A DNA stretch of 64,000 nt from contig NZ_FWFR01000002.1 of the NCBI RefSeq assembly GCF_900172325.1, forward strand, positions 248,001 to 312,000. The letters run 5' to 3'. The DNA comes from Oceanibacterium hippocampi. Lineage in GTDB: Bacteria; Pseudomonadota; Alphaproteobacteria; Sneathiellales; Sneathiellaceae. The notes under the pieces were generated by a model. The model did not search any database. It saw nothing but the letters and a program-made list of their open reading frames with translations, and had not been told where the DNA came from. The position numbers and the translations under genes were made by a program. This document shows, in pieces, positions 19,743 to 43,162 of this stretch. Positions within the stretch are counted from its first letter, which is position 1, and every line of letters starts with the position of its first letter.

Positions 19743-19760
19743 TTCGCTGCCTATGTCCGG

Positions 19761-21413: not shown

Positions 21414-21442
21414 CGTTCCCGTCCGTCTGAAGCGGCCGCAGT

Positions 21443-22246: not shown

Positions 22247-22328
22247 GGTTCGCCCGGTCACCGGGGCCGGCGGCGAGTGCCGTTCCTTGCCGCTTTTTCG
22301 GACGCGGCAAGTGCGTTAGCTTTTCCAG

Positions 22329-22844: not shown

Positions 22845-24203
22845 ATGTGGGGATTCAAGACACCTTCTAAGGTGACAACGTTCCTGTTAGGGCTTGTCGC
22901 TCTGACGGGTGCATCGCTATTCGACGGCCAGGGAGAGGCGGCGGCGCAGCAGACACCGCAATTCCTGCCGGACAAACATCTGGGAGTGACCTCCTGCGCC
23001 GGGTCGACCTGCCACGGTTCGATCGAGCCATGGGCGAATTCGGTGGTCCTTCAGAACGAATACGTGACCTGGCAGCAGAAGGACCGTCATTCGAAAGCCT
23101 ATGACGTGCTTCTCAGCGAACGGTCGCAGCGCATCGCCCGCAATCTCGGGCTGGAGAACGCGGCGACCGCGGACGTCTGTCTCGACTGCCACGCCGACAA
23201 CATCCCGGCCGAACTTCGCGGCCGAACCTTCCAGATTTCCGACGGCGTCGGTTGCGAGGCCTGCCACGGCGGCTCCGAACGCTGGCTCGGCGTTCACCTG
23301 ACTGGTGGCGGACATGCCAACAACGTGCAGGCCGGCATGTACTCCACGGTCGACCCGGTCAAGCGGGCGAAGCTTTGCCTCGGCTGCCATTTCGGCGATT
23401 CGAAGAAGTTCGTGACGCATCGCATCATGGGCGCCGGGCATCCGCGCATGCCGTTCGAGCTCGACACCTTCACCTGGAGCCAGCCGGCGCATTTCCGCAT
23501 CGACGACGACTACGCGAAGCGCAAGCAGGTCACCAACGGCGTGCAGACCTGGGCCATCGGCCAGGCGCTGGCGATGCAGAACATCCTGACCCTGCTCACC
23601 GATCCGAAGCGGAGCCATGACGGGATCTTCCCGGAACTGGTCTTCTTCGACTGCCATGCCTGCCATCATCCGATGAGCAACCTGCGCTGGCAGCCGCGGG
23701 CCAGCACGGGCCTCGGCCCGGGCGTTGTCCGGCTGAACGACGCCAACCTTGTCATGCTGCGGGTCATCGCCGGCCATGTGGCCCCGGAACTCGGTGACAT
23801 GCTGCAGGACCAGACCCGTGCCCTGCACCAGGCGTCGACCGACGGCATCGACGCCACCGGCGCCGCGGTCGCGGCCCTTCAGGACACCCTGTCGCAGCTG
23901 ATCGAGAAATTCGCCTCGCACAGCTTCGGCGGCGACGACATGAAGGCGCTCCTGAAAGGCGTGATCGACGAGGGGCTGCGCGGTGAGTATGTCGACTACG
24001 CGGCTGCCGAACAGGCCACCATGGCGATCGGTTCGATCCTCGATGCCATGCAGAAGGCGGGCCTGATCGACCAGGCGACCTTCGACGCCATGGGCGCCAA
24101 GCTCGACGAGGCCTACGCCTCGGTGGAGAAGGACGAGGCCTACAAGCCGGCGACCTATGTCGCCGCCCTGCAGGCGCTGAAGGAGTCCGCGTCCGGGCTC
24201 TGA
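22845..24203 (+). CDS. Periplasmic multiheme cytochrome c (c554 family)
   Basis: The 452-residue secreted cytochrome has a signal peptide (about 1-34). Five heme attachment motifs are visible: an atypical CX4CH (CAGSTCH at 51-57) followed by four CxxCH motifs, CLDCH, CEACH, CLGCH and CHACH. A helical C-terminal domain (about 300-450) lacks hemes. The CxSTCHG start, the CEACHGG motif and several free His residues (AGHPRM) match cytochrome c554-type proteins, which shuttle several electrons in the periplasm. It is convergent with the large multiheme operon and likely part of the same electron pathway. A strong terminator follows. Confidence 0.88.
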   Translation: MWGFKTPSKVTTFLLGLVALTGASLFDGQGEAAAQQTPQFLPDKHLGVTSCAGSTCHGSIEPWANSVVLQNEYVTWQQKDRHSKAYDVLLSERSQRIARNLGLENAATADVCLDCHADNIPAELRGRTFQISDGVGCEACHGGSERWLGVHLTGGGHANNVQAGMYSTVDPVKRAKLCLGCHFGDSKKFVTHRIMGAGHPRMPFELDTFTWSQPAHFRIDDDYAKRKQVTNGVQTWAIGQALAMQNILTLLTDPKRSHDGIFPELVFFDCHACHHPMSNLRWQPRASTGLGPGVVRLNDANLVMLRVIAGHVAPELGDMLQDQTRALHQASTDGIDATGAAVAALQDTLSQLIEKFASHSFGGDDMKALLKGVIDEGLRGEYVDYAAAEQATMAIGSILDAMQKAGLIDQATFDAMGAKLDEAYASVEKDEAYKPATYVAALQALKESASGL

Positions 24204-25385: not shown

Positions 25386-28300
25386 TCAGTCGGCCAGGGC
25401 CGCGCGTTTCGACTTTTCGGTCTTTTCCGGGCGCGCCGCGAGGAAATCCTTCTTGCGGATCTCGTCCGTGACCGTCCAGACGTTGCCGTTCTCGTCGAGA
25501 TAGAAGTCCTGCATCTCGCGGAGATTGAAGGGCCGGCTGCCGAGGCGACCGAAGATCGCCATCTGGCCGCCGGTTTCATCGACCGCGCGGTCACGATCAA
25601 GGCCCTTCGAGATCGACAGGGCCGGCCGGTTCATCTTCCACCAGGCCACCAGTTCCGGCTTCGGTTCCGGGCTGTAGCCGTAAAAGCGCGGCTGACTGTC
25701 CGGTGAGGTGAGCTGGATGACCTTGAGGCCGTTCCCGCCGTCGGCCACGTAGGCGAACAGCGAGGCATTGGTCGAACCGACTACGACGTCGCGGGCGTCG
25801 TTGAGCTTCCCGTCGGCGGTGTACTTCATGTAGATCGCCGGCGCTTCCGGCTTCTCCACGTCGACGATGACCAGGCCCTCGCCCTTCGCTGCAACATAGG
25901 CGTAGGTGCGGGCGACATAGATCCGCTGGGCGTCCTGCATCGGCACGGTCGCGCTCTCGACCTTGCGCGGGCGGTCCGGATGGGTGACGTCGACGACGTG
26001 GAAGCCGTCCGCGTCGGTCACGAAGAGATAGCGGAACTGCAACGCCGTCGCCCGCGGATCGTTGAACGGGATGATGTTGACCACCTGCGGCTTCAGCGGC
26101 TCGTCCATGTCGAGCACGACCACGCTCCGGTCGGTCGTGATGTAGAAATAATAGCCGGCGATCGTGATATGCCGTGCCCCGTTCAGGACGCCGCCCTCGT
26201 TCCATGTCAGCGCGCGGGTCAGGAAGTTGTTCCGGGCCTCGCCGTCGGAGAGCGTGTTGACGTCGGAGAGGATCAGGCCCTCCTCCGAGTCGGTTATGAA
26301 CACATAGTCGTAGATCGGGTGGAACGGCTGCTCCTGGTTGGTCACGAACATCAGTTCGCGGGTCGCGTCGTCCTTGCTTTGCCGGTCGGGATGGATCGGC
26401 TGGGTCGTCGGCAGCGCCATGCAGGTCGCGTTCTTGCTCGCGATATGGGTGTTGTGCCCAAGCGAGCTGAACGGCGCGGTGATGATCCGGTCGGAGATAC
26501 CCTTGTTGGCGATCGAGGCGACGTCATAGGCCTGGAAGCCGCGCCGACCCTCGGCGACATAGAGATACTCGCCGCGCAACTGCAGGCAGCCGACCTGGCC
26601 GCTCGGCTGGGTATAGACGTCGTAGAGTTCCCGGTTCCGTTCCTGGTGTTCCCGATACCAGTCGGGATAGGCGTATTTCTGCAGATAGCTGCCGATCACC
26701 GCCTGCGGCTCGTCGAACTCGGTGACCCGGATCGCCTCGAAACCGTCGGTCCCGCCGACCCAGGCATTTGCGCCCACGAAGTTGACGAAATTCGTCCCCT
26801 GCAACAGAAGCTGCGCCATGATCGCGTTGTTGTCGTTCTTCTCGGAGATATGGCAATCGCTGCAGGTCTTGGTTTCGGTCTTGCGCACGGTGTGCGGGAA
26901 ATGCGGCGCGAAGGCCTGGCTGGAATAGCCCGAGGCCGAGACCGGCGCCTGCTGGATGTAGATCCGTTCGCGGTTGATGTTCTGGGACGAAAGTACCAGC
27001 GCCGAGGAGGAACGGACCGGGGCGATGGTGTTGCCCTTGACCGTCGAATGGACGCCGAGCTGGAACATCTGGTCGCGCGCGACCTGCGGATTGTATGAGG
27101 CGTAGTTACGCGTCACGCCGCCGTCGAAATGCAGCCGCGGGGTCTTCCAGTTCGCCTGGATGGGCAGATGACAGCCGGCACAGGACGTCGTCCACGACAG
27201 ATGGCAGGTGAAGCATTCCATCTCGTCGTCGTCATGCGCCAGGTTGTCGGTCGCGACACCCGGTCCCCAGGCCATGCTGGTGCCCTTCGACATCAGCTTC
27301 GCCCGCGCCGCCTTCTCGTTGTAGTTCGCGCTCGCCGGATTGATGGTGTCTTTGACCAGCGAGACTTCCCATTCCATGTTCGGGCCCAGCGCGTCGGCGA
27401 TTTCCTTCGGCGGCTTGGTGCCCGGGCCCCAGAGCGAGGGACGCTGATAGAGCCGGCAATCCTGGCGCTCGTTGAGCGGTTCGTCGCAGTCGCTGCCGCG
27501 CCAGACGAAGCGCGAGCGGCCGTCCGGCGTCCGCAGCAGGCCGAGGTCGTTGCCGCCCGGACGCGCCGCCGGTCCCGAGGTCCGCAGCGTCGGGAAGGAC
27601 TTGGACGTGCCGTGGCAATCCTTGCAGCGGATCTCGATCACGTCCGCGACTTCGCCGTAGATCCAGCCGTTGCCGTGCGTGTCCTGCGCGAAATGGCAAT
27701 CGACGCAGTTCATGCCGACATCCAGGTGGATGGACGACATGTGGACAGCCTTCTTGAACTTGTCGGGATCGTCCGGGCTGACCACGTTGCCCTCGGCGTC
27801 GAGCAGATCGCCCTTCCGGCTCTTCTTGAAGATCGCCCGGAAGTTCCAGCCATGGCCGTGATAGTCGGCGAACTGGGTGTTCTTGTTCTTCGGGTTGATG
27901 TCGGTCCAGACATTCTTGACGAAGTCGACGTCGGCCCACAGGCCACGGGCCGCCGCCTCTTCCGGGTTCCGGGCCGCAACCTCGCGAAGTTCGTGGTCGG
28001 TCGGGTAGCGCTGCTCTTCCGGCCACATGTTCGGCGCGTCCGATTCGTAGTCCCACATGGTGTAGCCGAGGAACGAGTTCACGAACACGTTCGGCTGATG
28101 CATGTGGCAGTTCATGCAGAGGCTGGTCGGGATCGCCCGCGTGAACTCGTGGCGGATCGGGTGCCCTTCCTCGTCCTTCGGGATGGTCGGGTCGATCGTC
28201 TGCGTCTTGCCGTCATGCCCGAACGCCGCGTAGGGCCCGGAATGGCGCGGGTCGCGGTCGTTGGTATAGACGACGTGGCAGGCCGAACAGCCGGATGAAC

Positions 28301-29291
28301 GATAATCGCCGGGCTGGTCGTTGGTGCCGAGGAACCACAGGAACGGATCGTTCAGGCGCGTCTTGTGCAGGTTCAGGACCGGCACGGCGATCCGCAGGCC
28401 GGTGCCGAGGCCGCGGTTCGATTGCTTGATGTCCGGGCGGCCCGGTTCTTCCAGGCGCTGGATGCTGCCAGTTAGGTTCGGCAGGCCGATTTCCGGGAAC
28501 AGGTTGAGGATGTTGCGGCCGCCGCGCTCGAACACGCGGAAGACGTCGGCCGGCGGCGTGACCTCCCAGGCCGGCAGCGGCACCATCGTCGGCAGGATGC
28601 CGCGCGCCGCCATGTCCTCGGTCACCGGGGCCGGGCTGTTGATGATCGCCGCCACGCCCTCGCGGGTATAGGCCTCACCGGTCAGGTAGCGCTTGTAGGG
28701 CAGGATGCCGTTGTTGTAGGCCGCTCCGCCCCAGATCATGGCGCCCGTTGCCATGATGCTGCGCTCCGATGCCTGGATGATCGACAGATGGCAGGCGCCG
28801 CAGGCCTCACGCGCGACCCGGAGATCGCCCGGATTGACGAACCGGACATATTCCGGCGACTCCCGATTCAGCAGCGTGAAGCTGTGTTCCGGATTGCGAC
28901 TGTGCGGGTAATGCCAGGTCTCCGGCAGGGTCGGCAGGACATGCGCCTCTTCCTGCGCCGCGAAATAGCGCTTGTCGCCCTTCGCCGTTCCCGGCGGGCG
29001 GCGGACATCGGCGTCGCCGCCATGGCAGTCGACGCAACCGAGCGCCACCGCCGGGTTGATATGCATCGACGGGGCATCTGTCTCGGTATGACAGGTCATG
29101 CAGCCGAAACTCTTGGTCGCTGCCTGTTCCAGCGTCTGCCCGCGCGGCGCCGGCGGTGCCTCGTCATAGACGATCTTGAGCGGAGCCTCTTCCTCGGCGG
29201 CGCCAAGAACCGGGCCCGAGGCGAGAATCGCGGCCGAAAGGACAGTCAGTCCCAAAGCGAGCCTGGTGCTGGCAATCAACCGAGAGAACAT
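25386..29291 (-). CDS. Giant decaheme cytochrome c with C-terminal LVIVD beta-propeller
   Basis: The 1301-residue protein has a signal peptide (about 1-31). Ten CxxCH heme motifs start near residues 64, 85, 163, 334, 391, 528, 555, 692, 703 and 809. From about 890 to 1200 it holds LVIVD-type repeats (YLYVAEGRRGFQAYDV, YLFVTDADGFHVVDV, YAYVAAKGEGLVIVDV, FAYVADGGNGLKVIQL), a predicted beta-propeller found in surface and secreted proteins. ATG 29291 is used; a TTG at 29300 overlaps the porin stop (TTGA). It is the last gene of the operon, directly behind the outer-membrane barrel. I infer a terminal, possibly cell-surface, electron-exchange protein. No catalytic family is recognised. Confidence 0.9.
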   Translation of the reverse strand: MFSRLIASTRLALGLTVLSAAILASGPVLGAAEEEAPLKIVYDEAPPAPRGQTLEQAATKSFGCMTCHTETDAPSMHINPAVALGCVDCHGGDADVRRPPGTAKGDKRYFAAQEEAHVLPTLPETWHYPHSRNPEHSFTLLNRESPEYVRFVNPGDLRVAREACGACHLSIIQASERSIMATGAMIWGGAAYNNGILPYKRYLTGEAYTREGVAAIINSPAPVTEDMAARGILPTMVPLPAWEVTPPADVFRVFERGGRNILNLFPEIGLPNLTGSIQRLEEPGRPDIKQSNRGLGTGLRIAVPVLNLHKTRLNDPFLWFLGTNDQPGDYRSSGCSACHVVYTNDRDPRHSGPYAAFGHDGKTQTIDPTIPKDEEGHPIRHEFTRAIPTSLCMNCHMHQPNVFVNSFLGYTMWDYESDAPNMWPEEQRYPTDHELREVAARNPEEAAARGLWADVDFVKNVWTDINPKNKNTQFADYHGHGWNFRAIFKKSRKGDLLDAEGNVVSPDDPDKFKKAVHMSSIHLDVGMNCVDCHFAQDTHGNGWIYGEVADVIEIRCKDCHGTSKSFPTLRTSGPAARPGGNDLGLLRTPDGRSRFVWRGSDCDEPLNERQDCRLYQRPSLWGPGTKPPKEIADALGPNMEWEVSLVKDTINPASANYNEKAARAKLMSKGTSMAWGPGVATDNLAHDDDEMECFTCHLSWTTSCAGCHLPIQANWKTPRLHFDGGVTRNYASYNPQVARDQMFQLGVHSTVKGNTIAPVRSSSALVLSSQNINRERIYIQQAPVSASGYSSQAFAPHFPHTVRKTETKTCSDCHISEKNDNNAIMAQLLLQGTNFVNFVGANAWVGGTDGFEAIRVTEFDEPQAVIGSYLQKYAYPDWYREHQERNRELYDVYTQPSGQVGCLQLRGEYLYVAEGRRGFQAYDVASIANKGISDRIITAPFSSLGHNTHIASKNATCMALPTTQPIHPDRQSKDDATRELMFVTNQEQPFHPIYDYVFITDSEEGLILSDVNTLSDGEARNNFLTRALTWNEGGVLNGARHITIAGYYFYITTDRSVVVLDMDEPLKPQVVNIIPFNDPRATALQFRYLFVTDADGFHVVDVTHPDRPRKVESATVPMQDAQRIYVARTYAYVAAKGEGLVIVDVEKPEAPAIYMKYTADGKLNDARDVVVGSTNASLFAYVADGGNGLKVIQLTSPDSQPRFYGYSPEPKPELVAWWKMNRPALSISKGLDRDRAVDETGGQMAIFGRLGSRPFNLREMQDFYLDENGNVWTVTDEIRKKDFLAARPEKTEKSKRAALAD

Positions 29292-29296
29292 GGCAC

Positions 29297-31105
29297 TCAA
29301 TATGTCAGGATGAGGTTCAGAAGCACGGAGTAGAAGAAGCGGTCGTCGGTGTCATAGAGTTCCTGGAAGCCATCGCCTGCATAAAGCATGGCACCGGAAG
29401 CCCGCAGGACAACGTTTTGCGTGAACATGGGCCGCCAGATCAGCGCCGCCGACAGATCCCAGCCGATATCCCGTGAGATCCCACCCTGGTTACGCACCAC
29501 CTCCAGCGTCTCGGTCGTGGCGAAGCTCAGATGATTGGCATTCGTGCTGAGCCGGATCTCTGGCGTGATGTCGAAATCCGCCCCCATGCCGAGAAGCAGC
29601 AGGCCGGGATTGTTGAAGTTCGACTGGCCCTGCTCCTTCGACGACCGGAGCGATGGCAGCAGCGCGTTGCGCCCCGACAGGATGACACCGCCGCCGCCGA
29701 TCAGCGGTACCGCCTGGCGGATCCAGTAGCTGGTGTCGGCGCCGGCGAACTGCGGGTTCTCGAAGATGGCGTCGAAGCCCTCCTCGGTATCGTCGAACGG
29801 ATCGTCGTCGCCGCTCGCATAGAGGAACGAGCCGCGCAGACGCACCCAGCTGAAGTCGACCGACGGCTCGGCCGCCACGAAGAACGCCCGGATGTCGGAA
29901 TTGTCCTCGCCGCTCAGCTGGTTGTGCTGGTCCTGGCCGAGCGCGACATAGGCCGAGGTCGTCAGGTTGAAGCGGCCGAAATGACCGTCGCCGTTATAGC
30001 CGAGGTAGACGACGTCGTAATCGTGCCCGCGCTCGTCGCCGAACGAGGCCGGCCGCGCAAGGAAGTCGTTCTTGTCGTAGAAGAAGTCGCTGCCTTCCCG
30101 GTTCCGGTTGTAGACCGCGGTCACCTGCGACACGAAGCCGAGCGCCGGGAAATCCTGCCAGTACAGGTTGGCCATGAAGACGTCGTCGTCGCGCGGCAGT
30201 TCGGTGACGTCGTTCAGGCCCGAGTTGGTGTCCTTCTCGAGACGGCGGAACCAGGCCAGGTTGTACTGGTAGATGTTGTTGTTGCGGGTGCCGAAAAGGC
30301 GCACGCCGAGTTGCTGGTCCTGGAACAGGAAGCCGCGGAAATCCGCCTGGATCGGCTGGATGCCGACGCGGATCGAATCGAAGTCATAGCGATCCGAGAC
30401 GTTGCGGATGTGGTAGTCGACGAAGGCTTCCTGCAGGCCGATGAAATTGTCGGCACGGGTCCGCCCCTTGCGCGGATCGGCGCGCAGCACGCCGCGCTCC
30501 TCGACCTCGACGTAGTTGTAGTTGAACACCGGGGTCAGGCGGAATTCGTAATCCGGCGGCTTGTAGGCGGTGTCGCCCTTGATGATCGAGAGCGAGGCGA
30601 TGATGTTCTGGTTGAACACCAGCGAATTGATCTCGCCGAAGGGATCGTTGGAATCAGGCTTCTGCGTCGTGTTCGGGACGAACGGGATCGGGAAGGCCCG
30701 GGGTTCCACGATGGTGTCGGAGATCAGCAGGACGTTGACGAACCAGTCGTCGAAGATCGGCTTGTCGCCCTTCAGCGTGTTCTGGTTGTACGGGTCCCAC
30801 CAGCGCTCGGTGACGCCCAGCGACTCGATCAGGCGCCAACGGTCGGGCACCGGCAGCGATTCACGCGGCAGGTTCGGTTGCGGCGGCGGTACGGCGCTCG
30901 GATCGATCGGAGGCAGGTCGAGGGCCGGATCGCGGCGCGGCTGCTTGCCGGGAATCCGCCGCTCCGTCTGCCCGACCAGCACCCCGCTGCCCGGCGGCGC
31001 ATATTCGAACATCTGTTCCTTGCCGGCTTCTGCCGGTGTCGGAGCGCCAAGCGTCGATGCTGCGAGCAGACCGACGGCGGCGAGGTATTTCACTTGCCCT
31101 GGCAT
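29297..31105 (-). CDS. Outer-membrane beta-barrel protein of the multiheme operon
   Basis: The 602-residue protein has a signal peptide (about 1-27, APTPAEA) and a proline-rich plug-like segment (about 40-95). The rest alternates beta strands with aromatic girdles and acidic loops, ending LLNLILTY, the aromatic C-terminus recognised by the Bam machinery. No cysteine-based heme motif is present. It overlaps the upstream gene by 16 bases and touches the giant cytochrome gene. By analogy with porin-cytochrome conduits (MtrB, PcoB/ombB) it could hold a cytochrome in the outer membrane, but the sequence does not look like MtrB to me. Confidence 0.85.
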   Translation of the reverse strand: MPGQVKYLAAVGLLAASTLGAPTPAEAGKEQMFEYAPPGSGVLVGQTERRIPGKQPRRDPALDLPPIDPSAVPPPQPNLPRESLPVPDRWRLIESLGVTERWWDPYNQNTLKGDKPIFDDWFVNVLLISDTIVEPRAFPIPFVPNTTQKPDSNDPFGEINSLVFNQNIIASLSIIKGDTAYKPPDYEFRLTPVFNYNYVEVEERGVLRADPRKGRTRADNFIGLQEAFVDYHIRNVSDRYDFDSIRVGIQPIQADFRGFLFQDQQLGVRLFGTRNNNIYQYNLAWFRRLEKDTNSGLNDVTELPRDDDVFMANLYWQDFPALGFVSQVTAVYNRNREGSDFFYDKNDFLARPASFGDERGHDYDVVYLGYNGDGHFGRFNLTTSAYVALGQDQHNQLSGEDNSDIRAFFVAAEPSVDFSWVRLRGSFLYASGDDDPFDDTEEGFDAIFENPQFAGADTSYWIRQAVPLIGGGGVILSGRNALLPSLRSSKEQGQSNFNNPGLLLLGMGADFDITPEIRLSTNANHLSFATTETLEVVRNQGGISRDIGWDLSAALIWRPMFTQNVVLRASGAMLYAGDGFQELYDTDDRFFYSVLLNLILTY

Positions 31106-33081
31106 ACGTTTTGATCGCTCGAGTTGACGAAGGGTTTGAAGGGACAGGAGACATAGCGCAGGCGCGCCCCCGCCGGTGTCAGTCGATCCGCCCGGATCGC
31201 GTTCGGCGCGTTGCCGATGCCGGTTCCGAGGATCACCCCGGCGTTGTGCAGGCCGAGGAACGAGATCATGTCGTCCTGGTCGACGCCGTCGCCCGACACG
31301 CCGATCCCGCCGACCAGCGTGTTGCCGCGATAGATCGGCACGCTGCCGGGGAAGATCTGCAGCCCGTTCGCAACCCGTGGCTTGCCGGTCGCGCCCTGGA
31401 TCGGCAGGTCGGTGCAGAAGGCATCGGTGTCGGCGGCGGCGGCATTGCCCGGGATCGTCGTCGGCAGCCCGACCGGCGAGGCGAAGGCCAGATGCTCGAT
31501 GATATTGTCGAGCACGAGGTCGAGCTGCAGGCCGGTGTAGAACGGCGACCAGATCGCCAGCGGCTGGCTGAGCGGGCCATTCGGCGCGCCGTTGACGCCA
31601 TCGGGGAAGAAGGGCCGCGACAGGTTGCCGCCCGAACGGTCGGCGAAGGCCACCCCGTCCGCGAGCGCGTTCGGATTGCCGAGGAAGGTCCGGAGCGCGG
31701 TGACATAGCTCGACGGTGCGACGCCGAAGGTATTGGCCGGCCCGGCATTGAGATCGGCGCCGGCGACAGTGTTGGAAACGAAGGCCGCGGTCCGGGCCTT
31801 CTGCAGCGACACGTCGGTGCCGAAGATCGGGCCGTCCGGCGTCCTCGCCATGCCCAGGATGGCCCCGTTGGTGTCGACGATAGAGACCGTGACCTGGATC
31901 GGACTGTCGAGCGGACGGCGGATCTGCGCGCGGCCGCGCCGGGCGACATCGATCGCGCTGGTGATCAGCTGCGTGACCTCGGCGGCCGTCAGGTTGCCAT
32001 CGGTTCCCGCGCTGGCCGGGTAGCGGTTGGCACCGGTCGAATCGACCAGCAGGAAGGCGGTCTGGCCCGGGAAGGTTCCGGCCGGCGCCAGCATGAAGCC
32101 GGACGCGGCGGTGCCGTAGGCGACGCCCGCGGTGATTGCCGCGGCGGCCGTATAGCCCCGGACATTCTGCAACGTGCCGAGCACCCCGTTGACGGCGCCG
32201 AAGGCCGGCGCGAGGGTCGGGTTGGTCGCCAGCGAACTGTAGTCACGATCGGTGTAGCGGAAGGTCTTGCCCTCGACCGTGATCCGGTTGGCGACGATAT
32301 CCCCCGGCGGGCCGAAGCCGAACTGGCCGGCGAGCGCGACGAGTTCGTCGAGCTCGCTGTCAAAGTCGCCGATCCGGCGGTCGACACCATAGATGCCGTC
32401 GGTCAGTACGCCTATCCCGCCGACCACGACGCCGCTCTTGTAAAGCGGGATGCCGCCCGGATCGGCCGACAGGCCGAGCGGTGCGCGCTTCGGACCGATC
32501 GTCTGGTTCGGGCCGACCTGGAACCGAGTCGAGAGGTCCGAACAGGGAAGCTGGCTGAACTGCACGCCGAACAGCGGGCCGCCGAAACGGAATTGCTCGC
32601 CCGGATTGAAATTCTCCTGGACGATCTGGCTCGCCGTGCGGGTCGTGAAGGCGTTGCCGCTCGACGACAGGTAGGCGCCGGTCACGGCCTTCGAGATCGC
32701 GCCGAGGACCGAGGGCACGACGACGTTGTTGACGCCGAAACCGGGCGCGCCGCCGTTGATGATCCGGGTCGTACCCTTTTCCAGGCTGGAGCGGCCGGGA
32801 TCGATGAAGGCTGTGGTCGGCGACCCGTTCATCTGGAAGACGCCGAGCACGTTGCCGACACGGTCGACCACGGCGATCGTCGCCGGGGCGTTGCGGACAT
32901 TCGCCTCGTTCACCGCCTGGGCGATGATCTGCTGGACTTCCGCGACCGTGAGCGCCTGCTGGGCCGGCACCGTATGCTGCTGCGCGGCGACCTGCTGGAC
33001 ACCGCAGAGGGCAAGCGCCGATCCGATCATTCCGGCGGCAAGCCGCGGCAGGATCCGGGAATATGTCCTGCGGAAATTCAT
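31090..33081 (-). CDS. Secreted double HbpS/GlcG-domain (heme-binding-like) protein
   Basis: The 663-residue protein has a signal peptide (about 1-32, VQQVAAQQ). It holds two units of the HbpS/GlcG (DUF336) fold: one opening LTVAEVQQIIAQAVNEA with IAVVDRVGNVLGVFQM (about 40-320), the other opening LTAAEVTQLITSAIDVA with VSIVDTNGAILGMAR (about 330-650). HbpS of Streptomyces binds heme and iron. Both units are enlarged by inserts. A GGAGG ribosome-binding site precedes ATG 33081, which begins one base after the upstream stop. Likely periplasmic. Confidence 0.82.
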   Translation of the reverse strand: MNFRRTYSRILPRLAAGMIGSALALCGVQQVAAQQHTVPAQQALTVAEVQQIIAQAVNEANVRNAPATIAVVDRVGNVLGVFQMNGSPTTAFIDPGRSSLEKGTTRIINGGAPGFGVNNVVVPSVLGAISKAVTGAYLSSSGNAFTTRTASQIVQENFNPGEQFRFGGPLFGVQFSQLPCSDLSTRFQVGPNQTIGPKRAPLGLSADPGGIPLYKSGVVVGGIGVLTDGIYGVDRRIGDFDSELDELVALAGQFGFGPPGDIVANRITVEGKTFRYTDRDYSSLATNPTLAPAFGAVNGVLGTLQNVRGYTAAAAITAGVAYGTAASGFMLAPAGTFPGQTAFLLVDSTGANRYPASAGTDGNLTAAEVTQLITSAIDVARRGRAQIRRPLDSPIQVTVSIVDTNGAILGMARTPDGPIFGTDVSLQKARTAAFVSNTVAGADLNAGPANTFGVAPSSYVTALRTFLGNPNALADGVAFADRSGGNLSRPFFPDGVNGAPNGPLSQPLAIWSPFYTGLQLDLVLDNIIEHLAFASPVGLPTTIPGNAAAADTDAFCTDLPIQGATGKPRVANGLQIFPGSVPIYRGNTLVGGIGVSGDGVDQDDMISFLGLHNAGVILGTGIGNAPNAIRADRLTPAGARLRYVSCPFKPFVNSSDQNVCQGK

Positions 33082-33082
33082 G

Positions 33083-34018
33083 TCAGCCTCCGGCCCGTTG
33101 CAGGACAACCAGCGTTGCGCCGGCCTCGACGGTTTCGCCTTCGACGACGGCCACCGATGCGACCGTTCCGTCACCCGGGGCGACGACGGTGCGCGCCCCC
33201 TCTTCGTTCCTGAGCACGACCAGCACGTCGCCGGTCACCACGTTGGCGCCGCCGGTGACCGAAATGGCGATCACGCTGCCGCCGATCGGGGCGACCACGG
33301 CGCTGCCGAGGCTCGGATCATCGACCCGTTCCTCGCTGTCGCGATCGCTGCCGCTGTCATCGACGGAGGCCATTGCCGCGCCTTCGGAACCGCTGTCGGC
33401 GGCCTCGCCGCCTCCGTCACCCTCGCTCGCGCCGCCGGCCCCGTTCGAACGACTGGCGAGGGCCAGGGTCTGCTGGAACCGGTCGCGGGCGAGCGCGCCG
33501 AGGCGCGCAAGCTCTCCGTTGTCCTGGAAGGTCGAGGTCACCGTCGCCACCGGGGAAGCGCCGACCTGCTGATGGAGCGTGAAGGCACCAAACTTGAAGG
33601 CGCCGCCGGCACGGTACGCGAGTTGCACGCTGATCGGGAAGAAGGTGCCCGACAGGTCTTCCTTCAGGATCTTGTAGGTCACGGTGTCGCCGTCGGCCGC
33701 GAAGCCATTGTCCTCGAGCGCATCGATGTCGCCGCTCCACGGCGTCCAGAAACCGTTCCGGTCTCGCTTCAGCCGCTGACCGTCCGGCGTCGATGCGGTG
33801 ACATAGGTCGCCGAAGGCGTGTCGCCGCCGGTTTCGATCGATCGGTTGACCTCGCCCAGGCCCGGCCCGACGACCATCGGCGCGAGCTGCGCGCCGTCGG
33901 GCGAGAGTTGCCCCTGTGCCGCGGCACCGCTGGCGCCCGCTGTCAGGATCGCGGCGGCAAGCAGGATTCCGGGCATCGTTGCCCGCGCCGTCCCGGTCGC
34001 TCGTGCGGTGATGTTCAT
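33083..34018 (-). CDS. Secreted protein with C-terminal lipoyl/biotinyl-like domain
   Basis: The 311-residue protein has a signal peptide (about 1-34, ASGAAAQ). It has an N-terminal beta-rich domain (about 40-180) and a Gly/Ser/Asp-rich linker. A C-terminal hammerhead fold (about 240-311: VVAPIGGSVIAISVTGGANVVTGDVL then VVAPGDGTVASVAVVEGETVEAG) is typical of biotinyl/lipoyl attachment domains and membrane-fusion proteins. The modifiable Lys motif (MKM or DKA) is absent, so it is probably structural, as in HlyD-type adaptors. It is fourth in the operon, ending one base before the HbpS-like gene. No family recognised for the N-terminal half. Confidence 0.75.
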   Translation of the reverse strand: MNITARATGTARATMPGILLAAAILTAGASGAAAQGQLSPDGAQLAPMVVGPGLGEVNRSIETGGDTPSATYVTASTPDGQRLKRDRNGFWTPWSGDIDALEDNGFAADGDTVTYKILKEDLSGTFFPISVQLAYRAGGAFKFGAFTLHQQVGASPVATVTSTFQDNGELARLGALARDRFQQTLALASRSNGAGGASEGDGGGEAADSGSEGAAMASVDDSGSDRDSEERVDDPSLGSAVVAPIGGSVIAISVTGGANVVTGDVLVVLRNEEGARTVVAPGDGTVASVAVVEGETVEAGATLVVLQRAGG

Positions 34019-34058: not shown

Positions 34059-35813
34059 TCAATTTCCAGTCGCCTTCCCGGTTTCCGCCTTGAGCGCGGC
34101 CTGTTTGGCGGGTTGCACGGGTTTCAGTTCCGGCAGTCCCGGAAGATGGAACTCGTGACAGTCGATGCAGGTCGAGGGGACCAGGTCTGCCGCCTTCTCG
34201 CCGCCATGGCACCCCTGGCAGCCATCGATGTTCGGCAGCAGGACATCCTCGGCCGTTTTCGAGGTCGGCGCGGCATGGCACGAGACGCAGTCCAGGTCGC
34301 GGTGCTTGCCGTGGTCGAACGTGCCCTTCGGCAGCCAGGTATCGGCAAGCCGGACCTGGGCGATCTGCCAGAACCCGTCGCCGCCCGGCGCCGGTTCGGT
34401 AACCGTGTGGCACGATCCGCAGAGCGACTTTCCGAAGGTCGTGGTTGCGACCGTCTCGGCCTTCTGCTGCGCCCACTCGAGGGCCTCCACGCGTTCCTCC
34501 TCGGTCATCCGCTGGCCCGGCAGGCGCCGGCGGTTGGTGGCCGAGGAATTCTCCTGCTGGTAGGCGCCCTCGAGAGCGGCCTTGGCATAGAATTCCCGGA
34601 TCTGCTCGATCGCGTTCACCGGCTTGCCATGGGGCAACCAGCGATCCGGGACCGAGGGATCGAAGGCCAGCCTGTGGCACTCGATGCAGTTCTCTTCCAT
34701 CTTGATGGGCTTCATGCCGACGCCACCGGGCTCGGTCACGTGGCAGTCGCCGCAATCCATGTTGATGGTGCCCTTGACCGGATGCCGCACGCCCTTTTCC
34801 GCCAGATGCTTGTCGTGCGGGAACTTGAGGTTCGACATTTCCTTCGGCTTGTCCTCGAGCCGCAGGCGGGCAAAGACCCCTTTCTCGGCATCCTGAACCA
34901 CGGTCGGCCGGAAATTCGGGTGCGCGTTGCCGAAGTCGGAGACGTTCAGAAGCGTCGTCTTCGGCTCCTGCGCGTCGAGACCGGCATGGCAGTCGACGCA
35001 GAACGCCTGGTCGTTCAGGACGATCTCGCGGATGCCGTTATGTTCCTTGTGACAGCTTTGGCACTTCTCGCCGGCGAAGGTGGCGGTCGTGAATTCCGTC
35101 GGGTTGGCGTGGTGCGAGATGCCCTTGTGGCAGTTGACGCAAGCCTGGTCCTGCACCTGCACGAAGGGTTCCTGGTGACAGGCCTCGCAATCGGCGCCGA
35201 AGAAGCGGTGCGGACTGGACATCCCGCCGGACAGCCAGAGGCTGTCGGCGCCGGTCAGCACGTTCTTCGGGTTCTGGTGCGCGGCCACCATGTCGAAGGC
35301 GACACGCTGCTCCGGAGCCTTCATGTAGAAGGCGTAGATCGGCCCGCCGAGAAAGATGACCGCGATCGCGATGAACAGCAGCCATGACCAGCCGCGCCGG
35401 CCCAGGCCGAGCACGCTGTTGACGCTCGTGCGGCTGCGTTCCTTCAGCTCGTCGAGGGTGGCGCCGAGCGGGCGCACCAGCTCGATGGTAATGCCGATGT
35501 CGCGATCGCCGCCCAGTTCCTCGATGACCAGCTCGTAGGGGCCGACGCCGATCTTGTCGCCCTTCTTGAGCTGGGCGGTCGAGACCGAGGCGCCGTTGAC
35601 GCTCGCCTCCAGGTCGGCGGCAACGCTTTCGAGGTAAAAGCCGCCCGCCCGCTCGTGGATCTCGCTGTGCAGCAGCGGCACCCGCGGATCCGGCAGGTAG
35701 ACCTGGCAATCGGCGCCACGGCCGATGCGCAGGATGTCGGTCGTAACCTCGGTATCACGCCGGGCAACGTCGCCGCTGCGTTTCCGGGTGAGTTGGCTGA
35801 TCAGAGCGTCCAC
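34059..35813 (-). CDS. FHA-domain / transmembrane / decaheme cytochrome c fusion
   Basis: The 584-residue protein has an N-terminal cytoplasmic FHA domain (about 25-100: LRIGRGADCQVYL with the Gly-Arg, and LLHSEI in place of SxxH). One membrane helix follows (about 143-163). The periplasmic part carries ten CxxCH motifs starting near residues 209, 225, 251, 272, 354, 376, 465, 509, 532 and 549. FHA domains bind phosphothreonine peptides, so the electron carrier seems tied to a Ser/Thr kinase signal or a scaffold. There is no signal peptide; the helix acts as anchor. The start is GTG 35813 with a GGAGG site 8 bases ahead. It lies 15 bases after the cytochrome b gene. Confidence 0.92.
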   Translation of the reverse strand: MDALISQLTRKRSGDVARRDTEVTTDILRIGRGADCQVYLPDPRVPLLHSEIHERAGGFYLESVAADLEASVNGASVSTAQLKKGDKIGVGPYELVIEELGGDRDIGITIELVRPLGATLDELKERSRTSVNSVLGLGRRGWSWLLFIAIAVIFLGGPIYAFYMKAPEQRVAFDMVAAHQNPKNVLTGADSLWLSGGMSSPHRFFGADCEACHQEPFVQVQDQACVNCHKGISHHANPTEFTTATFAGEKCQSCHKEHNGIREIVLNDQAFCVDCHAGLDAQEPKTTLLNVSDFGNAHPNFRPTVVQDAEKGVFARLRLEDKPKEMSNLKFPHDKHLAEKGVRHPVKGTINMDCGDCHVTEPGGVGMKPIKMEENCIECHRLAFDPSVPDRWLPHGKPVNAIEQIREFYAKAALEGAYQQENSSATNRRRLPGQRMTEEERVEALEWAQQKAETVATTTFGKSLCGSCHTVTEPAPGGDGFWQIAQVRLADTWLPKGTFDHGKHRDLDCVSCHAAPTSKTAEDVLLPNIDGCQGCHGGEKAADLVPSTCIDCHEFHLPGLPELKPVQPAKQAALKAETGKATGN

Positions 35814-35828: not shown

Positions 35829-36659
35829 CTACCAGTAGAAGAAGACCGCGATCACGTGCGCGATCAGCGCCGCGAGAAGCGCGAAGGAAATGGGAACATG
35901 GATGTAGAGCCAGATCTGCATCAGCGCGAGGAAGCGGACGTCGCGCCGGGCCTGGCGCAACAGTTCGTTTTTGCGGGACAGGATGCCGGCGAGCCGGCGG
36001 ATCTGCGTCGCCTCCTTGCCGGAGGCCGAAGCCGCGAGTTCCTCGACCCGCACCAGCCCCCTGGCCGTCGGACAGTTCCGGTCCTCGCCGGACAGCATGC
36101 GCCCGAGGCCGCCGCCGATCTTCGTCTTGTTCGCCGCCTCGAGGACCACCGCGTTGATCTCGTCACCGAGGGTGAGCGCCGCGCTCCGGGCCTCCTCGTC
36201 GAGTTCGGCGATGTCGCGGAGCAGCTGTTCGGAGGTCTTGCCATGCCGGTTCTCGGTCATCAGCCGGGGATAACGGGCATAGGCGTAGATACCGAACACG
36301 CCCGAGACGATGACCAGGATCATCAGCGCATAGGCCAGCGTGTGCAGGTTCCAGCCGAACTGGAAGCCGGTATGCAGGGTCGCCACGACGATCAGGGCAA
36401 GGCCGAGATAGACATGCGCCGAGAGCCAGCCCTGCAGCTTGTTCGCGCCGCCGTAATAGCGCCGCTTGCGCATTCCGAACCACATCAGCCAGAGGATCAG
36501 CAGCGCACCGATCGTGCCGAGCGTGTAACCGAGCCAGGTGCCGCCGTTCGGCACGCCGAGGGGCTGGTCGACCGCATAGGCGATGATCGCCACGATCCCG
36601 AGCAGGACGGCGATCTTCAGAAAGCGGAAACCGCGATAGACGAGTACTGATTCATGCAT
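35829..36659 (-). CDS. Membrane diheme cytochrome b-like protein
   Basis: The 276-residue protein has about five hydrophobic helices. Two of them hold His pairs spaced H-X13-H (about His82/His96 and His254/His268), the spacing that binds two stacked b hemes in cytochrome b and ferric-reductase-like proteins. A soluble, charged helical insert of about 115 residues (about 125-240) separates the helix pairs, unusual for b561 proteins. The ATG at 36659 is preceded by GGAAGGGGG; a TTG at 36686 is also open. It probably carries electrons between the cytosolic flavoprotein and the FHA-cytochrome, perhaps exchanging with quinone. Confidence 0.82.
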   Translation of the reverse strand: MHESVLVYRGFRFLKIAVLLGIVAIIAYAVDQPLGVPNGGTWLGYTLGTIGALLILWLMWFGMRKRRYYGGANKLQGWLSAHVYLGLALIVVATLHTGFQFGWNLHTLAYALMILVIVSGVFGIYAYARYPRLMTENRHGKTSEQLLRDIAELDEEARSAALTLGDEINAVVLEAANKTKIGGGLGRMLSGEDRNCPTARGLVRVEELAASASGKEATQIRRLAGILSRKNELLRQARRDVRFLALMQIWLYIHVPISFALLAALIAHVIAVFFYW

Positions 36660-36694
36660 GTTGGCGAGGGCCCCCTTCCGCGCCAAGCGGAATA

Positions 36695-39079
36695 CTATTG
36701 TCGCGCCAGCGCGGCGATCGACATGAATTCTTCAGGACTGACACGGATGGCAGCCCCCGTCGGACAGGCCCGGACGCATGACGCGCCGCCGGGAATGTCC
36801 TTGCACATATCGCATTTGACGGCCTGCTTGGCCCCTTTGCCCTTGGCTTTCGGATCCTGCCCCGGTCCGGATCCCAGTCCGAACAGCATCCAGCTCAGCA
36901 GGCCGGGCTTCTTCGGCGGCGCCGCGGAAAGCCGGATCACGTCATAGGGGCAGTTCATCTCGCAATTGCCGCAACCGATGCAGCTGTCGTCGATATAGAC
37001 CTCGCCGTTCTGCGCCCGGTGGATGGCGTCCGGCGGGCAATCCTTCATGCAGTGCGGATGCTCGCAATGCCGGCACGAGGTCGGCACATGCAGTTCGGCG
37101 TAGGTCGGCCCGGCCTCACGGTTCAGGCGGTTGATGCCGCCGTGGGTCTCGGCGCAGGCCTTCTCGCAATTGTCGCAGCGCACGCAGAGCGACTCGTCGA
37201 TCAGCAGGATGTCGGTCGCCTCGCCGGCGCCCTGCTTGACCAGGAATTCGATGATCCCGCTGGCATCGCGCGACTGCGCCATGCGCTCGTTCTGGACCGC
37301 GAACCCGCGCGCCCGCGCCTGCATCGCTGCGCTCAGCGTCGGCGACTTGTCGAGCAGCGCCTTGAAGGCCGCGCCGTCCATCCGGATGGTCTCGGTATTG
37401 TCGATCGCCGCGCGGACGGTGGCCGAACGGGGCGCGTCGGACAGGAACGCCATCTCGCCCACGTAATTGCCCGAGGCGACGTAGGAGAGCACGATGTCGG
37501 AGCCGCCGATGCGGCGCGAGACGGTGACCGAACCGCGCCGGATCAGATGCACCGAGTCGCCTGCCTGGCCTTCCTCGAACAGAGCCTGGCCCTGCTTGAA
37601 GGAATTGATCTCGGCGGTATCGACCAGTTCGATCAGGTCCTCGGTCGGGACGCTCGGCGCCATGTGGGTCTGCACCTGGCGGATGATGGCGGTGCGATCG
37701 AGTACGCGTTTCACCGATTCAACGGAGTTGACCAGCTTGATCATCGTCCGCCGCGGCACTTCCAGCAGCGTCGCGTTCCGCCCGGCCTTGACCGTCGCGG
37801 TCCGGCGCCGGCCGGAAATCAGCCCCATCTCGCCGAAGAACTCGCCCTGCCCGAGCCGCACCACGACCGAGGGATCGGACGGATCGACCTCGATCAGGAC
37901 CTCGCCCTCGACGACGGTGAAGAACGAATTGGTGTAGTCGTTGCGCGCGAACACGACCTCGCCGTCCTTCGGGCGATGGAGGCTCGCCTCCAGCATCATT
38001 TCGCGCAGCAGCAGCGGGTTGAGCTCGGAATAGATCGGCACGTTGGCGCGGATCATGTCGAGCACCTCGGCGACCGACATGCCCTGGAGAATCTTGAAAT
38101 TCTCCTCGAGCAGCGGTTCGTCCGCCGGCTTGATCATGTTGCCGGCGATGAACTCGATCGCCTCGTATCCCTGGTTCATCGCCTGCTTGATCAGCGGATA
38201 GCCGCCGAGCGCGCCGATGATATAGAGGCCGGGAACGTTGGATTCGTATGTCGAGCTCACTTCCGGGAGCGCCGTCGCGTCCTTCGACGGGAAGACGATC
38301 CCGCAGCTCTCGACGAACTTGCGCGGCGCGACCGCGCCGAGACGGGCGATGACCCGGTCGCATTTGACGTCGATCTCGCCATCGGGCGTGCTCAGCGTCA
38401 GGGCGCCGTTCTCGACTTTGACCGGGCTCGCGCTGTAGATGCAGTTCAGGTCGCCGCGCTGGATCGCGGTGCTGATCAGCGCCAGGTTGCCTTCCTTGGC
38501 ACGGGCGAATTCGTCCCGTCGGTTGATGATCGTGACCCGGTTCTGCTTGGCCAGCGCGACCGCGTTCTCGATCGCCGCGTCGCCGGCGCCGACGACCAGG
38601 ATGTCCTCGGCCTCGTACTCGTCCGGATCGTCGAGCTGATACTGGACGAGGCCCGATTCATCCTCGCCCGGAACGCCGAGCTTGCGGAGGTTGCCCTGCA
38701 GGCCGATGGCGAAGATCACATGCTCGGCCTTGACCGTATCGCCGCTATTCAGGGTGATCGTGAAATCGCCCTTCTGCCCGGTGATTCCGGTGACCTCGCT
38801 GTTGTAACGGACGTTGACGCCGAGTGTCTCGGTCGTCTTGTCCCAGGAGCCGAGGATATCTTCGCGTATGCCGAGGGAGAATTCGTATTCGCTTCGAAGC
38901 GGCAGGTTGTCAGGCGTCGCCATGACCAACTTGCCCTTCTGGTACTTGTAGATCGTGTCGGATAGATGGTCGGATTTCTCGAACAGGACATGCGACACAC
39001 CGTTTGCCGCCGCGCGACCTGCCGCGCTCATCCCGCCGGGACCGGATCCTACTATGGCGACCGCGTATTGTTCGGTCAT
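36695..39079 (-). CDS. FAD/NAD(P)H oxidoreductase fused to two cNMP-binding domains and four [4Fe-4S] motifs
   Basis: The 794-residue cytosolic protein. Residues about 1-320 form a thioredoxin-reductase-like flavoprotein with FAD motif VGSGPGGMSAAG and NAD(P) motif VVGAGDAAIENA. No CxxC active disulfide is present, so it resembles ferredoxin reductase/YpdA types. Two CRP-type cyclic-nucleotide-binding domains follow (about 345-455 and 480-600) with cassettes FGEMGLISGRRRTATV and VGEMAFLSDAPRSATV. The C-terminus (about 620-794) has four cluster motifs: CVRCDNCEKAC, CRHCEHPHCMKDC, CIGCGNCEMNC and CDMC-X8-CVRAC. It is the first gene of the operon and has no signal peptide. It plausibly feeds NAD(P)H electrons into the membrane cytochrome b, gated by a nucleotide. 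Confidence 0.93.
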   Translation of the reverse strand: MTEQYAVAIVGSGPGGMSAAGRAAANGVSHVLFEKSDHLSDTIYKYQKGKLVMATPDNLPLRSEYEFSLGIREDILGSWDKTTETLGVNVRYNSEVTGITGQKGDFTITLNSGDTVKAEHVIFAIGLQGNLRKLGVPGEDESGLVQYQLDDPDEYEAEDILVVGAGDAAIENAVALAKQNRVTIINRRDEFARAKEGNLALISTAIQRGDLNCIYSASPVKVENGALTLSTPDGEIDVKCDRVIARLGAVAPRKFVESCGIVFPSKDATALPEVSSTYESNVPGLYIIGALGGYPLIKQAMNQGYEAIEFIAGNMIKPADEPLLEENFKILQGMSVAEVLDMIRANVPIYSELNPLLLREMMLEASLHRPKDGEVVFARNDYTNSFFTVVEGEVLIEVDPSDPSVVVRLGQGEFFGEMGLISGRRRTATVKAGRNATLLEVPRRTMIKLVNSVESVKRVLDRTAIIRQVQTHMAPSVPTEDLIELVDTAEINSFKQGQALFEEGQAGDSVHLIRRGSVTVSRRIGGSDIVLSYVASGNYVGEMAFLSDAPRSATVRAAIDNTETIRMDGAAFKALLDKSPTLSAAMQARARGFAVQNERMAQSRDASGIIEFLVKQGAGEATDILLIDESLCVRCDNCEKACAETHGGINRLNREAGPTYAELHVPTSCRHCEHPHCMKDCPPDAIHRAQNGEVYIDDSCIGCGNCEMNCPYDVIRLSAAPPKKPGLLSWMLFGLGSGPGQDPKAKGKGAKQAVKCDMCKDIPGGASCVRACPTGAAIRVSPEEFMSIAALARQ

Positions 39080-39991: not shown

Positions 39992-42868
39992 TCATGAGTC
40001 CTGCCGTTCGTTGTCGGGATCGTAGAACGGGAGCGGCACGACCTCGGCCCGCAGCATGGCGCCCTGGTCGACCCGGATGTCGAAGGGGACGCCGGGGGCG
40101 GCATGCTCGGCCGGCACATAGGCGAGCCCGATGACATGGCCGAGGCTCGCCGAGCGGGCGGCCGAGGTCACCCGTCCGGCAACCTGGCCGTCGCGGATGA
40201 CGAGGTGGCATTCCTTCGGCACCCGGCTTTCGCCCGCCGGGAGCCGGAAACCGACCAGCTTCCGTGTCAGGCCGGCCCGGCTGCGCAGCCCGATGGCGTG
40301 CTTGCCGACGAAGAAGTCCTTCTTCCGTGCTATTGCCCAGGCCATGTCGGCTTCCAGCGGATTGGTCGTCCCGTCGGTATCCTGGCCGACGATGATATGA
40401 CCCTTCTCGAGCCGCAGGAGACGCTGCGCCTCGACCCCGAAGGGCGCGATGCCCTCCTCCCTGCCCGCCTCGACCAGGGCGTCCCACAGGGTCTCGCCGA
40501 GACCGGACGGGCAATGGATCTCGTAGCCGAGCTCGCCCACGAAGCCGACCCGGAGCAATCGGCAGGGAATACCCGCCACGTGGCCTTCGCGGACCGCCAG
40601 GTAGGGGAAGCCCGCCGGCGAGAGGTCGAGGCCGTCGGCGACGCGTTCCAGCACCCTTCGGCTGTTGGGACCGGCCAGGTTGATCGCGGCCCAGGCGGCG
40701 GTAACGTTGGCGATATCGACCCGCATCCGCCACTCGGCATTGAGCCGGAGCATCTCCCGGTAGACCCCGTCGACCCCACCGGTGGTCGCCGTGACGTAGA
40801 AGTGATTGTCGGCCATGCGGCAGGCGACGCCGTCGTCGACGATGATGCCGAGCCGGTCGGTCATCAGCACGTAGCGCGACTTGCCGACCGGCTGCTTCGC
40901 GTAGGCGAAGGTGTAGACCCGTTCGAGGAAGGCCGCCGCGTCGGCCCCGCGGATTTCCAGCTTGCCGAGCGTCGAGACGTCGATCAGGCCGACATTGCCG
41001 CGCACGTTCGCCGCCTCCCGGGCGATCGCCCCGGCCGCGTCGCCGCTGCCCCCGTAATGGGCCGGGCGGAGCCACAGTCCAGCCGGCATGAGCACGGCGC
41101 CCGCCTCCACATGGCGGTCATGCATGGCGGTTCGCCGTACCGGTTCGAAGCCGCGCCCGGCAAGCAGGCCGAACTTCTCCGGCAGCGCCGGTGGCCGCCA
41201 GGTCGTCGCGCCGACCGCGTCAAGTGTCTGCCCGGTCGCCTCGGCGATCAGCCGCTGGGTGGCGAGCGCCGAGTGCCGCCCCTGGCTCGGCCCCATGCCG
41301 ACCGTCGAGAAGCGCTTGACCAGTTCCGCGTGACGCCAGCCCTCGGCAATCGTGTTGCGGATGTCGGCGATCGTCAGATCCTCGTCGAGGTCGACGAATT
41401 CCTTGCCCCTTGGATGGGGGAAGATCGGCCAGGGATGGTTGAACAGCGCCCCGTCCGGGGCCGGTCGTTCCGGCTCCGGCGCGGCGCCGCCGGCGACCGC
41501 CTGCCGGGCCGCGGCGCCAACCGCCAGACCGTCGCGGGTCGCCGCGTCGAGGCTGTATCGGCCGGCCGCGGCACCGGCCAGCCCGACGCCCTCGGGCAGT
41601 TCGCCGCTGGCGAAGCTGTGTCCGCTCCCGTCATGGACGGGCCGCATGCCCCGGTGGCAGAGCAGGTGAAGGCGCGGCACCTGGGCGACGCTGACCGCCA
41701 GCAGGTCGCAATCGACCCGGCGGCGGCTGTCGTCGACCCGCCCGCGTCCGGTGACCCCCGCGAGCGTCACCACGCCGAGCCGGGCCCGGCCGTGGCCCTC
41801 GTAAGCAGTCCAGCCGTCGAGGAGCTCGATCCCGGCGGCGCGCGCCTCGCGCCGGAACGGGCCATCGTCGGGCGCCAGGCGCAGATCGGCGATCGCCGCG
41901 ACCACGGCCCCGGCCTCGACCAGGTCGAGGGCGACGCCGTAGCCCTGGTCGTTCGCCGTCACGACCACGGCGCGACGCCCCGGCAGCACGCCGTAGAGAC
42001 GGATCAGCCGCGATACCGTGTCGGCCGTCATGATCCCCGGCCGGTCGTTGTTGCGGAATACCAGCGGCTGCTCCTCCGCCCCGGTCGCGACGACGACCCG
42101 GCCGGCGCGGATCTTGTGCAGGCGCTTGCCCTGCCCGACGGCGAGCCAGTTGTCGTCATAGAGACCGAGGCAATGGGCGCCGGTCATGACATGGATCGTG
42201 CCGGCCTTGCCGTTCCGCTCCAGCGGTTCGGCCCCGACACCGCCGCGGCGCTGGCGCATCGAGCCGCCGATCACCGGATTGCGGTCGATCAGGATGACCT
42301 CGGCGCCGTCCTCTGCAGCGGCGAGCGCAGCGGCGAGGCCGGCCGGCCCGGCGCCGACGACGGCAACCTCGCACCAGCCGTAGGCCTTGTCGAAATAGCC
42401 ATGCGGACCGTTCGTGTCGACCGTGCCCAGCCCGGCGAAGGCACGGATCTTCGGTTCCCAGAATTTCCACGCGCCGGCCGGCCGGTAGAAGGCGCGGTAA
42501 TAGAATCCGGGCGGCAGGAAGCGGCCGAACAGCCCCATCAGCGCGAAACGGTCCCGTTCGAGGCTGCCGGCATAGTTCTGCCCCCGGAAGGAGGCGCCCT
42601 CGGTCAGCGGAACATGCTCGGCAAAGGCGTTCGGTTCGGCGCCGGCCGCGATCAGGCTGTTGGCGTCGGCGGCGGTCATCGAGAACAGGCCGCGCGGGCG
42701 GTGATACTTGAAGCTCCGCGAGAGCACCGAGATCCCGGCCCCGACCAGCGCCGAGGCGGCGCTGTCGCCGGCGAAACCCGACAGGGTTCTCGCGCCGAAG
42801 CGGAAATGCAGCGGCCGCGTCCGGTCGATCAGGCTGCCGAACGGTGCCGCGAGCCGGGTTCCGCTCAT
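39992..42868 (-). CDS. soxA: Sarcosine oxidase alpha subunit
   Basis: The 958-residue alpha subunit. The N-terminus has a 2Fe-2S-like fold remnant (FGARTLSGFAGDSAASALVGAG), and a NAD-binding flavoprotein module (about 160-480) has VVGAGPAGLAAALAAAEDG. The C-terminal half is a GcvT-type tetrahydrofolate-binding aminomethyltransferase (about 580-950, e.g. LIDVSTLGKLEIRGADAAAFLERV and CRLLRVGFVGELGYEIH). Length matches known alpha subunits. It overlaps soxD by four bases. Confidence 0.95.
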   Translation of the reverse strand: MSGTRLAAPFGSLIDRTRPLHFRFGARTLSGFAGDSAASALVGAGISVLSRSFKYHRPRGLFSMTAADANSLIAAGAEPNAFAEHVPLTEGASFRGQNYAGSLERDRFALMGLFGRFLPPGFYYRAFYRPAGAWKFWEPKIRAFAGLGTVDTNGPHGYFDKAYGWCEVAVVGAGPAGLAAALAAAEDGAEVILIDRNPVIGGSMRQRRGGVGAEPLERNGKAGTIHVMTGAHCLGLYDDNWLAVGQGKRLHKIRAGRVVVATGAEEQPLVFRNNDRPGIMTADTVSRLIRLYGVLPGRRAVVVTANDQGYGVALDLVEAGAVVAAIADLRLAPDDGPFRREARAAGIELLDGWTAYEGHGRARLGVVTLAGVTGRGRVDDSRRRVDCDLLAVSVAQVPRLHLLCHRGMRPVHDGSGHSFASGELPEGVGLAGAAAGRYSLDAATRDGLAVGAAARQAVAGGAAPEPERPAPDGALFNHPWPIFPHPRGKEFVDLDEDLTIADIRNTIAEGWRHAELVKRFSTVGMGPSQGRHSALATQRLIAEATGQTLDAVGATTWRPPALPEKFGLLAGRGFEPVRRTAMHDRHVEAGAVLMPAGLWLRPAHYGGSGDAAGAIAREAANVRGNVGLIDVSTLGKLEIRGADAAAFLERVYTFAYAKQPVGKSRYVLMTDRLGIIVDDGVACRMADNHFYVTATTGGVDGVYREMLRLNAEWRMRVDIANVTAAWAAINLAGPNSRRVLERVADGLDLSPAGFPYLAVREGHVAGIPCRLLRVGFVGELGYEIHCPSGLGETLWDALVEAGREEGIAPFGVEAQRLLRLEKGHIIVGQDTDGTTNPLEADMAWAIARKKDFFVGKHAIGLRSRAGLTRKLVGFRLPAGESRVPKECHLVIRDGQVAGRVTSAARSASLGHVIGLAYVPAEHAAPGVPFDIRVDQGAMLRAEVVPLPFYDPDNERQDS

Positions 42869-43152: not shown

Positions 43153-43162
43153 CGTCGCCGTC

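Follow-up and report, generated by a model that had tools for sequence, protein, structure and literature searches.

An FHA domain joined to a membrane-anchored decaheme cytochrome c, and its possible docking role, in a PCC4-related gene cluster of Oceanibacterium hippocampi

Background

A 64,000-nucleotide stretch of the Oceanibacterium hippocampi genome (contig NZ_FWFR01000002.1, positions 248,001 to 312,000; hereafter the window) contains a CDS in which a forkhead-associated (FHA) domain precedes a multiheme cytochrome c. This raises the question of what a domain commonly associated with phosphothreonine recognition does on an electron carrier. An earlier note, made from the sequence alone, proposed kinase-dependent docking of a flavoprotein or of a cytochrome b. 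Here, the fold, the state of the binding site, the distribution of the family and its gene neighbourhood were analysed in silico.

Results and discussion

Architecture and fold of the FHA-decaheme protein

The arrangement read in the earlier note, namely an FHA domain, one helix and ten CxxCH motifs, is borne out by Pfam, AlphaFold2, Foldseek and the motif count. The corresponding features are as follows:

34059..35813, (-): FHA-TM-decaheme cytochrome c, 584 aa, GTG start
35478..35813, (-): FHA domain, residues 1-112, predicted cytoplasmic; G31-R32 invariant, P46, no NGT loop (Pfam, AlphaFold2, Foldseek, family alignment)
35322..35399, (-): single TM helix, residues 139-164 (AlphaFold2, hydrophobicity, alignment)
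34134..35243, (-): decaheme domain on the periplasmic side, approximately residues 191-560 (ten CxxCH and ten invariant non-CxxCH His)

The Pfam FHA model PF00498 matches residues 29-91 (E=6.8e-7, 30.1 bits, cut-off 20.7) and is equalled in strength by PF16697, the cytoplasmic FHA-like domain of the T3SS protein YscD (3.6e-7, below the cut-off of that model), while models of cytochromes c3/c7 lie C-terminal to it (Cytochrome_C7, 3.4e-15). AlphaFold2, supplied with an alignment of 47 sequences, folds residues 2-112 into an 11-strand beta sandwich (pLDDT 89 overall, block pLDDT 94-98). Foldseek matches the FHA part to the FHA domains of GarA, OdhI, FhaA and DgcB (E-values of roughly 1e-6 to 1e-4; TM-scores, normalised by target length, reaching 0.79), with which profile searches also group it. 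On the basis of AlphaFold2, Foldseek and a Pfam score above cut-off, the domain belongs to the FHA fold superfamily. The alternative raised in the earlier note, another beta sandwich at residues 25-100, is ruled out by AlphaFold2 and Foldseek, and a chance or mis-fused ORF by full-length homologues in about 50 genomes. On the fold of the heme domain Foldseek was uninformative, the matches listed being to the FHA part.

A single helix (139-164) is present in the AlphaFold2 model, and the sole hydrophobic segment of the 584-aa protein (144-162) falls between the FHA and heme parts; R140 and P158 of this helix are invariant and W144 is near-invariant in the family alignment. Since the attachment of c-type heme occurs in the periplasm and only one hydrophobic segment is available, the FHA part is predicted to be cytoplasmic. 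The ORF has exactly ten CxxCH motifs, and ten additional His are invariant in 36 full-length sequences (H202, 235, 258, 298, 333, 336, 395, 501, 504 and 556). That their number equals that of the hemes indicates, at the level of sequence conservation, bis-His ligation of all ten hemes and a pure electron-transfer role, the decaheme acting as an electron wire. The protein falls outside the MtrA/MtoA/PioA decaheme family, its only similarity to TIGR03508 (DmsE-family) being local and scoring 26 bits, where the cut-off is 192.

State of the phosphothreonine site

The earlier note had pointed to key Gly-Arg and Ser/His-like positions, of which the Arg and the His are indeed present and the Ser is not. 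The phosphate-contacting Arg lies in G31-R32, invariant in 52/52 rows of the family alignment, and His49 occurs in the window protein and in 32/52 rows. Where the aligned GarA and FhaA sequences read V-S-R-R-H, the window protein reads V-P-L-L-H, with Pro46 at the place of the phosphate-binding Ser, and the S-x-N-G-T loop (S-L-N-G-T in GarA/FhaA) corresponds to A-A-D-L-E-A-S. Among the 47 distinct relatives, Ser or Thr occupies the Ser position in four (it is mostly P, A, N, L, R, E or D across the family), an NG[T/S/V] loop is found in none, and none combines the two. The usual pattern (S-G-Y-H and S-K-N-G) is seen in a non-orthologous FHA protein of one relative (L011, relative G032). As judged from these alignments, the canonical phosphothreonine pocket is lost family-wide in the relatives sampled; an FHA fold devoid of its binding loop is the very situation that the earlier note had named as speaking against its own reading. 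The invariant Arg of the Gly-Arg pair is also the classical phosphate ligand of FHA domains, and certain FHA domains may keep phosphopeptide binding despite pocket substitutions.

Distribution and conservation of the family

A survey of FHA-CxxCH architectures, as suggested in the earlier note, found the family in 37/385 genomes of the class (about 10%) and in 15/399 genomes of the phylum. The FHA part was present in every hit, no homologue lacking it being found among about 50 hits at E<=1e-20. One homologue (L009, G032:C287) displays a single in-frame TGA after heme 4, corresponding either to a pseudogene or to an assembly error in a fragmented genome. Mean pairwise identity is 31% for the FHA part vs 39% for the heme domain, and since the FHA part is nonetheless kept in every homologue found, it appears from these comparisons to be under selection. 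The decay of the phosphothreonine site and this greater divergence would suit an FHA part that is a passive remnant, or a plain folding or topology anchor for the signal-anchor TM helix. Such a reading is quite unlikely given that the fold, G31-R32, G74 and G91 are retained across distant lineages and that FHA-less homologues are missing from the hits.

Gene neighbourhood and co-occurrence

The genes surrounding the FHA-decaheme CDS are the following:

35829..36686, (-): diheme cytochrome b with five TM; WX3HX13H motifs at 87 and 259, SGxxG at 128
36695..39079, (-): soluble flavoprotein, 794 aa, with a TrxB-like FAD/NAD(P) domain, two cNMP-binding domains and 4Fe-4S clusters
33083..34018, (-): protein with a biotinyl/lipoyl-like domain and an N-terminus resembling a signal sequence, conserved neighbour
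31090..33174, (-): multi-domain protein of 694 aa, HbpS-like
29297..31105, (-): 602-aa protein, probably a beta barrel of the outer membrane (porin), conserved neighbour
25386..29300, (-): 1304-aa cytochrome, the second with ten hemes, carrying LVIVD repeats at its C-terminus
22845..24203, (+): cytochrome c554-like, four CxxCH and one CX4CH, recurring near the cluster in relatives

In all 40 regions fetched from other genomes (40/40), the cytochrome b gene lies directly beside that of the FHA-decaheme. The flavoprotein falls within the fetched region in 39/40, including one (L080) in which the contig stops just past the cytochrome b and the flavoprotein match is found elsewhere in the region; outer-membrane genes occur in most. 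Across the 385 class genomes, the flavoprotein was detected in 36 of the 37 with the decaheme vs 0/348 without it, counts that are inflated by relatedness among genomes. In one genome (G144), the flavoprotein is a lone gene on another contig with no cytochrome b or decaheme nearby, so that the co-occurrence does not reflect only operon hitch-hiking. The constant cytochrome b neighbour and the near-perfect co-occurrence of the flavoprotein fit the part of the earlier proposal that concerned docking of one or the other; since the cytochrome b, which has a loop of about 110 residues between TM4 and TM5, is as constant as the flavoprotein, the FHA partner could be either or both. Genes that are inherited together in this way would not be told apart by mirror-tree methods.

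Regarding the other genes, the putative porin has no Pfam match and no TM helix, and matches an NCBIfam porin model weakly (E=0.002). The HbpS-like protein is unusually large, contains several HbpS stretches and is kept in most clusters, and the second ten-heme cytochrome bears a distant resemblance to ExtM, a protein of selenite/tellurite operons (E=4e-21, with a score well short of the cut-off for that family). A T2SS set (secretin GspD, M, K, pseudopilins, G, F, E and prepilin peptidase; 11190-22261, (-)) adjoins the cytochrome cluster and could export a surface cytochrome; a conserved linkage was rejected, a T2SS gene occurring within the fetched regions of only two relatives. Just upstream, sarcosine oxidase alpha-like and FAD oxidoreductase (DAO) genes (39992-44452, (-)) show no conserved linkage in relatives.

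Relation to PCC4 and to a Gallionellaceae protein

The inner membrane protein of PCC3 and PCC4 is described as having five TM, with SGxxG on TM4 and WX3HX13H on TM3 and TM5, and PCC4 as comprising cytochromes with 4, 5 and 10 hemes together with an inner-membrane cytochrome b and a porin gene (He et al. 2017, PMC5566968). With motifs at 87, 128 and 259 and five hydrophobic regions, the cytochrome b of the window answers this description, and its position beside a ten-heme cytochrome is common to PCC4 and the window cluster. In one relative (L086), the PCC4 counts are found as such (4-, 5- and 10-heme cytochromes, together with a porin-like gene and the same cytochrome b), and the ten-heme protein encoded there belongs to the FHA-decaheme family. 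In that region (692-12734), the cytochromes carry 4, 10 and 5 hemes and an aldehyde:ferredoxin oxidoreductase-like gene is located upstream. The window departs from the 4/5/10 pattern, its cytochromes having 10, 10 and 4 hemes (plus one CX4CH), and further differs in its putative porin, in having one flavoprotein only (FAD-cNMP-FeS) and in encoding HbpS-like as well as biotinyl-like proteins. Because the outer-membrane cytochrome, the putative porin and the accessory genes differ, the window gene set is, by its predicted content, a distinct PCC4-related variant. The main text of the PCC4 paper does not mention FHA (PMC5566968).

A ten-heme "Forkhead-associated protein" appears in a table on Gallionellaceae genomes (Table 1, cluster 403, 27 genomes, class "Other"; PMC10734462). 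It resembles the window protein in its FHA annotation and ten CxxCH, a likeness by description only, and the entry is not accompanied by any treatment of the FHA site, its partner or the surrounding genes. Going by this entry, the architecture was already on record, though unexplained, and is not new.

Comparison with other degenerate or docking FHA domains

The SctD/PrgH/MxiG proteins of T3SS also combine an N-terminal cytoplasmic FHA domain degenerate for phosphothreonine binding, one TM helix and a periplasmic domain; in these proteins, however, the periplasmic part is a ring-building domain without heme, and no sequence family relation to the decaheme is claimed. In PrgH, the membrane-anchored FHA lacks the conserved phosphothreonine residues and mutating the corresponding residues leaves secretion unaffected, while deletion of the FHA results in immature, secretion-incompetent assemblies (PMC3635987). 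By analogy, the FHA part could oligomerise the decaheme through FHA-FHA or ring contacts and so set the stoichiometry or geometry of the heme wire. We regard this as very doubtful: the PrgH/MxiG-like layout and the YscD model scoring level with that of FHA would agree with it, but the link with the flavoprotein seen across genomes carries more weight.

The best FHA match to the window domain in both sequence and structure is GarA/OdhI, which docks on a metabolic enzyme via the FHA tips and independently of phosphorylation. In the OdhA-OdhI structure, the FHA binds the enzyme, Arg72 of OdhI contacts OdhA and Ser86 is dispensable (PMC10415282); Arg72 aligns to R32 of the window protein. Unlike the latter, GarA/OdhI are soluble regulators with an intact phosphothreonine pocket, a kinase-phosphorylated tail and no heme.

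Kinase distribution

No match to the Pkinase family was found in 16/40 genomes carrying the FHA-decaheme, nor in 14/36 when only genomes with a completeness of 90% or more and a contamination of 5% or less are counted. In the window's genome, the FHA-decaheme is the sole FHA match and the only strong kinase match lies beside integrase-like and PP2C-like ORFs (L004, 6-3524), so named from reading their sequences, which suggests a mobile or accessory island. Pocket loss and kinase distribution together make phospho-dependent docking in its canonical mode unlikely, and the kinase-dependent part of the earlier proposal is not supported. The least probable reading is that a Ser/Thr kinase marks the flavoprotein or the cytochrome b loop for recognition through the invariant Arg: the invariant Gly-Arg, the frequent His49 and a kinase next to a PP2C-like ORF would accord with it, but the Ser and NGT positions are lost family-wide, many carrier genomes are devoid of Pkinase matches, the sole strong kinase match sits on an apparent accessory island, and the cytoplasmic loop of the cytochrome b has no invariant Thr where it begins, the region of T144 being variable.

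Proposed role of the FHA domain

With the phosphate-reading residues gone, the most plausible role of the FHA domain is that of a permanent docking clamp. From the computed fold, topology, heme ligands, pocket loss, gene triad and co-occurrence, we infer that the decaheme is probably the periplasmic carrier of a flavoprotein-cytochrome b-decaheme complex and its FHA part a constitutive, phosphorylation-independent docking surface, for which PrgH/MxiG and GarA/OdhI are precedents. The cytoplasmic FAD/cNMP/4Fe-4S flavoprotein, the diheme cytochrome b and the decaheme anchored in the inner membrane would form a three-part trans-membrane redox complex encoded in a PCC4-related gene cluster of the porin-cytochrome (extracellular electron transfer) type. 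The FHA tip would hold the soluble flavoprotein, and possibly also the TM4-TM5 loop of the cytochrome b, against the membrane, and thereby let electrons move between NAD(P)H/Fe-S, b hemes and c hemes. Electrons may pass from flavoprotein to cytochrome b, decaheme and outer-membrane cytochromes, or in the reverse direction, possibly under some control by cNMP.

An unlikely elaboration is that the FHA domain, repurposed as a plug that works independently of phosphorylation, links a cNMP-regulated flavoprotein reversibly to the trans-membrane heme wire; if so, extracellular electron transfer would come under second-messenger control.

As a constitutive docking surface, the FHA domain would have a specific, testable role beyond phospho-signalling, with the FAD/cNMP/4Fe-4S flavoprotein as its likely cytoplasmic partner. 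A single protein family probably lies behind both the "Forkhead-associated, 10-heme" annotation and the proposed PCC4, and the data point to a widespread candidate module for electron entry or exit at the inner membrane, present in about 10% of the class genomes sampled.
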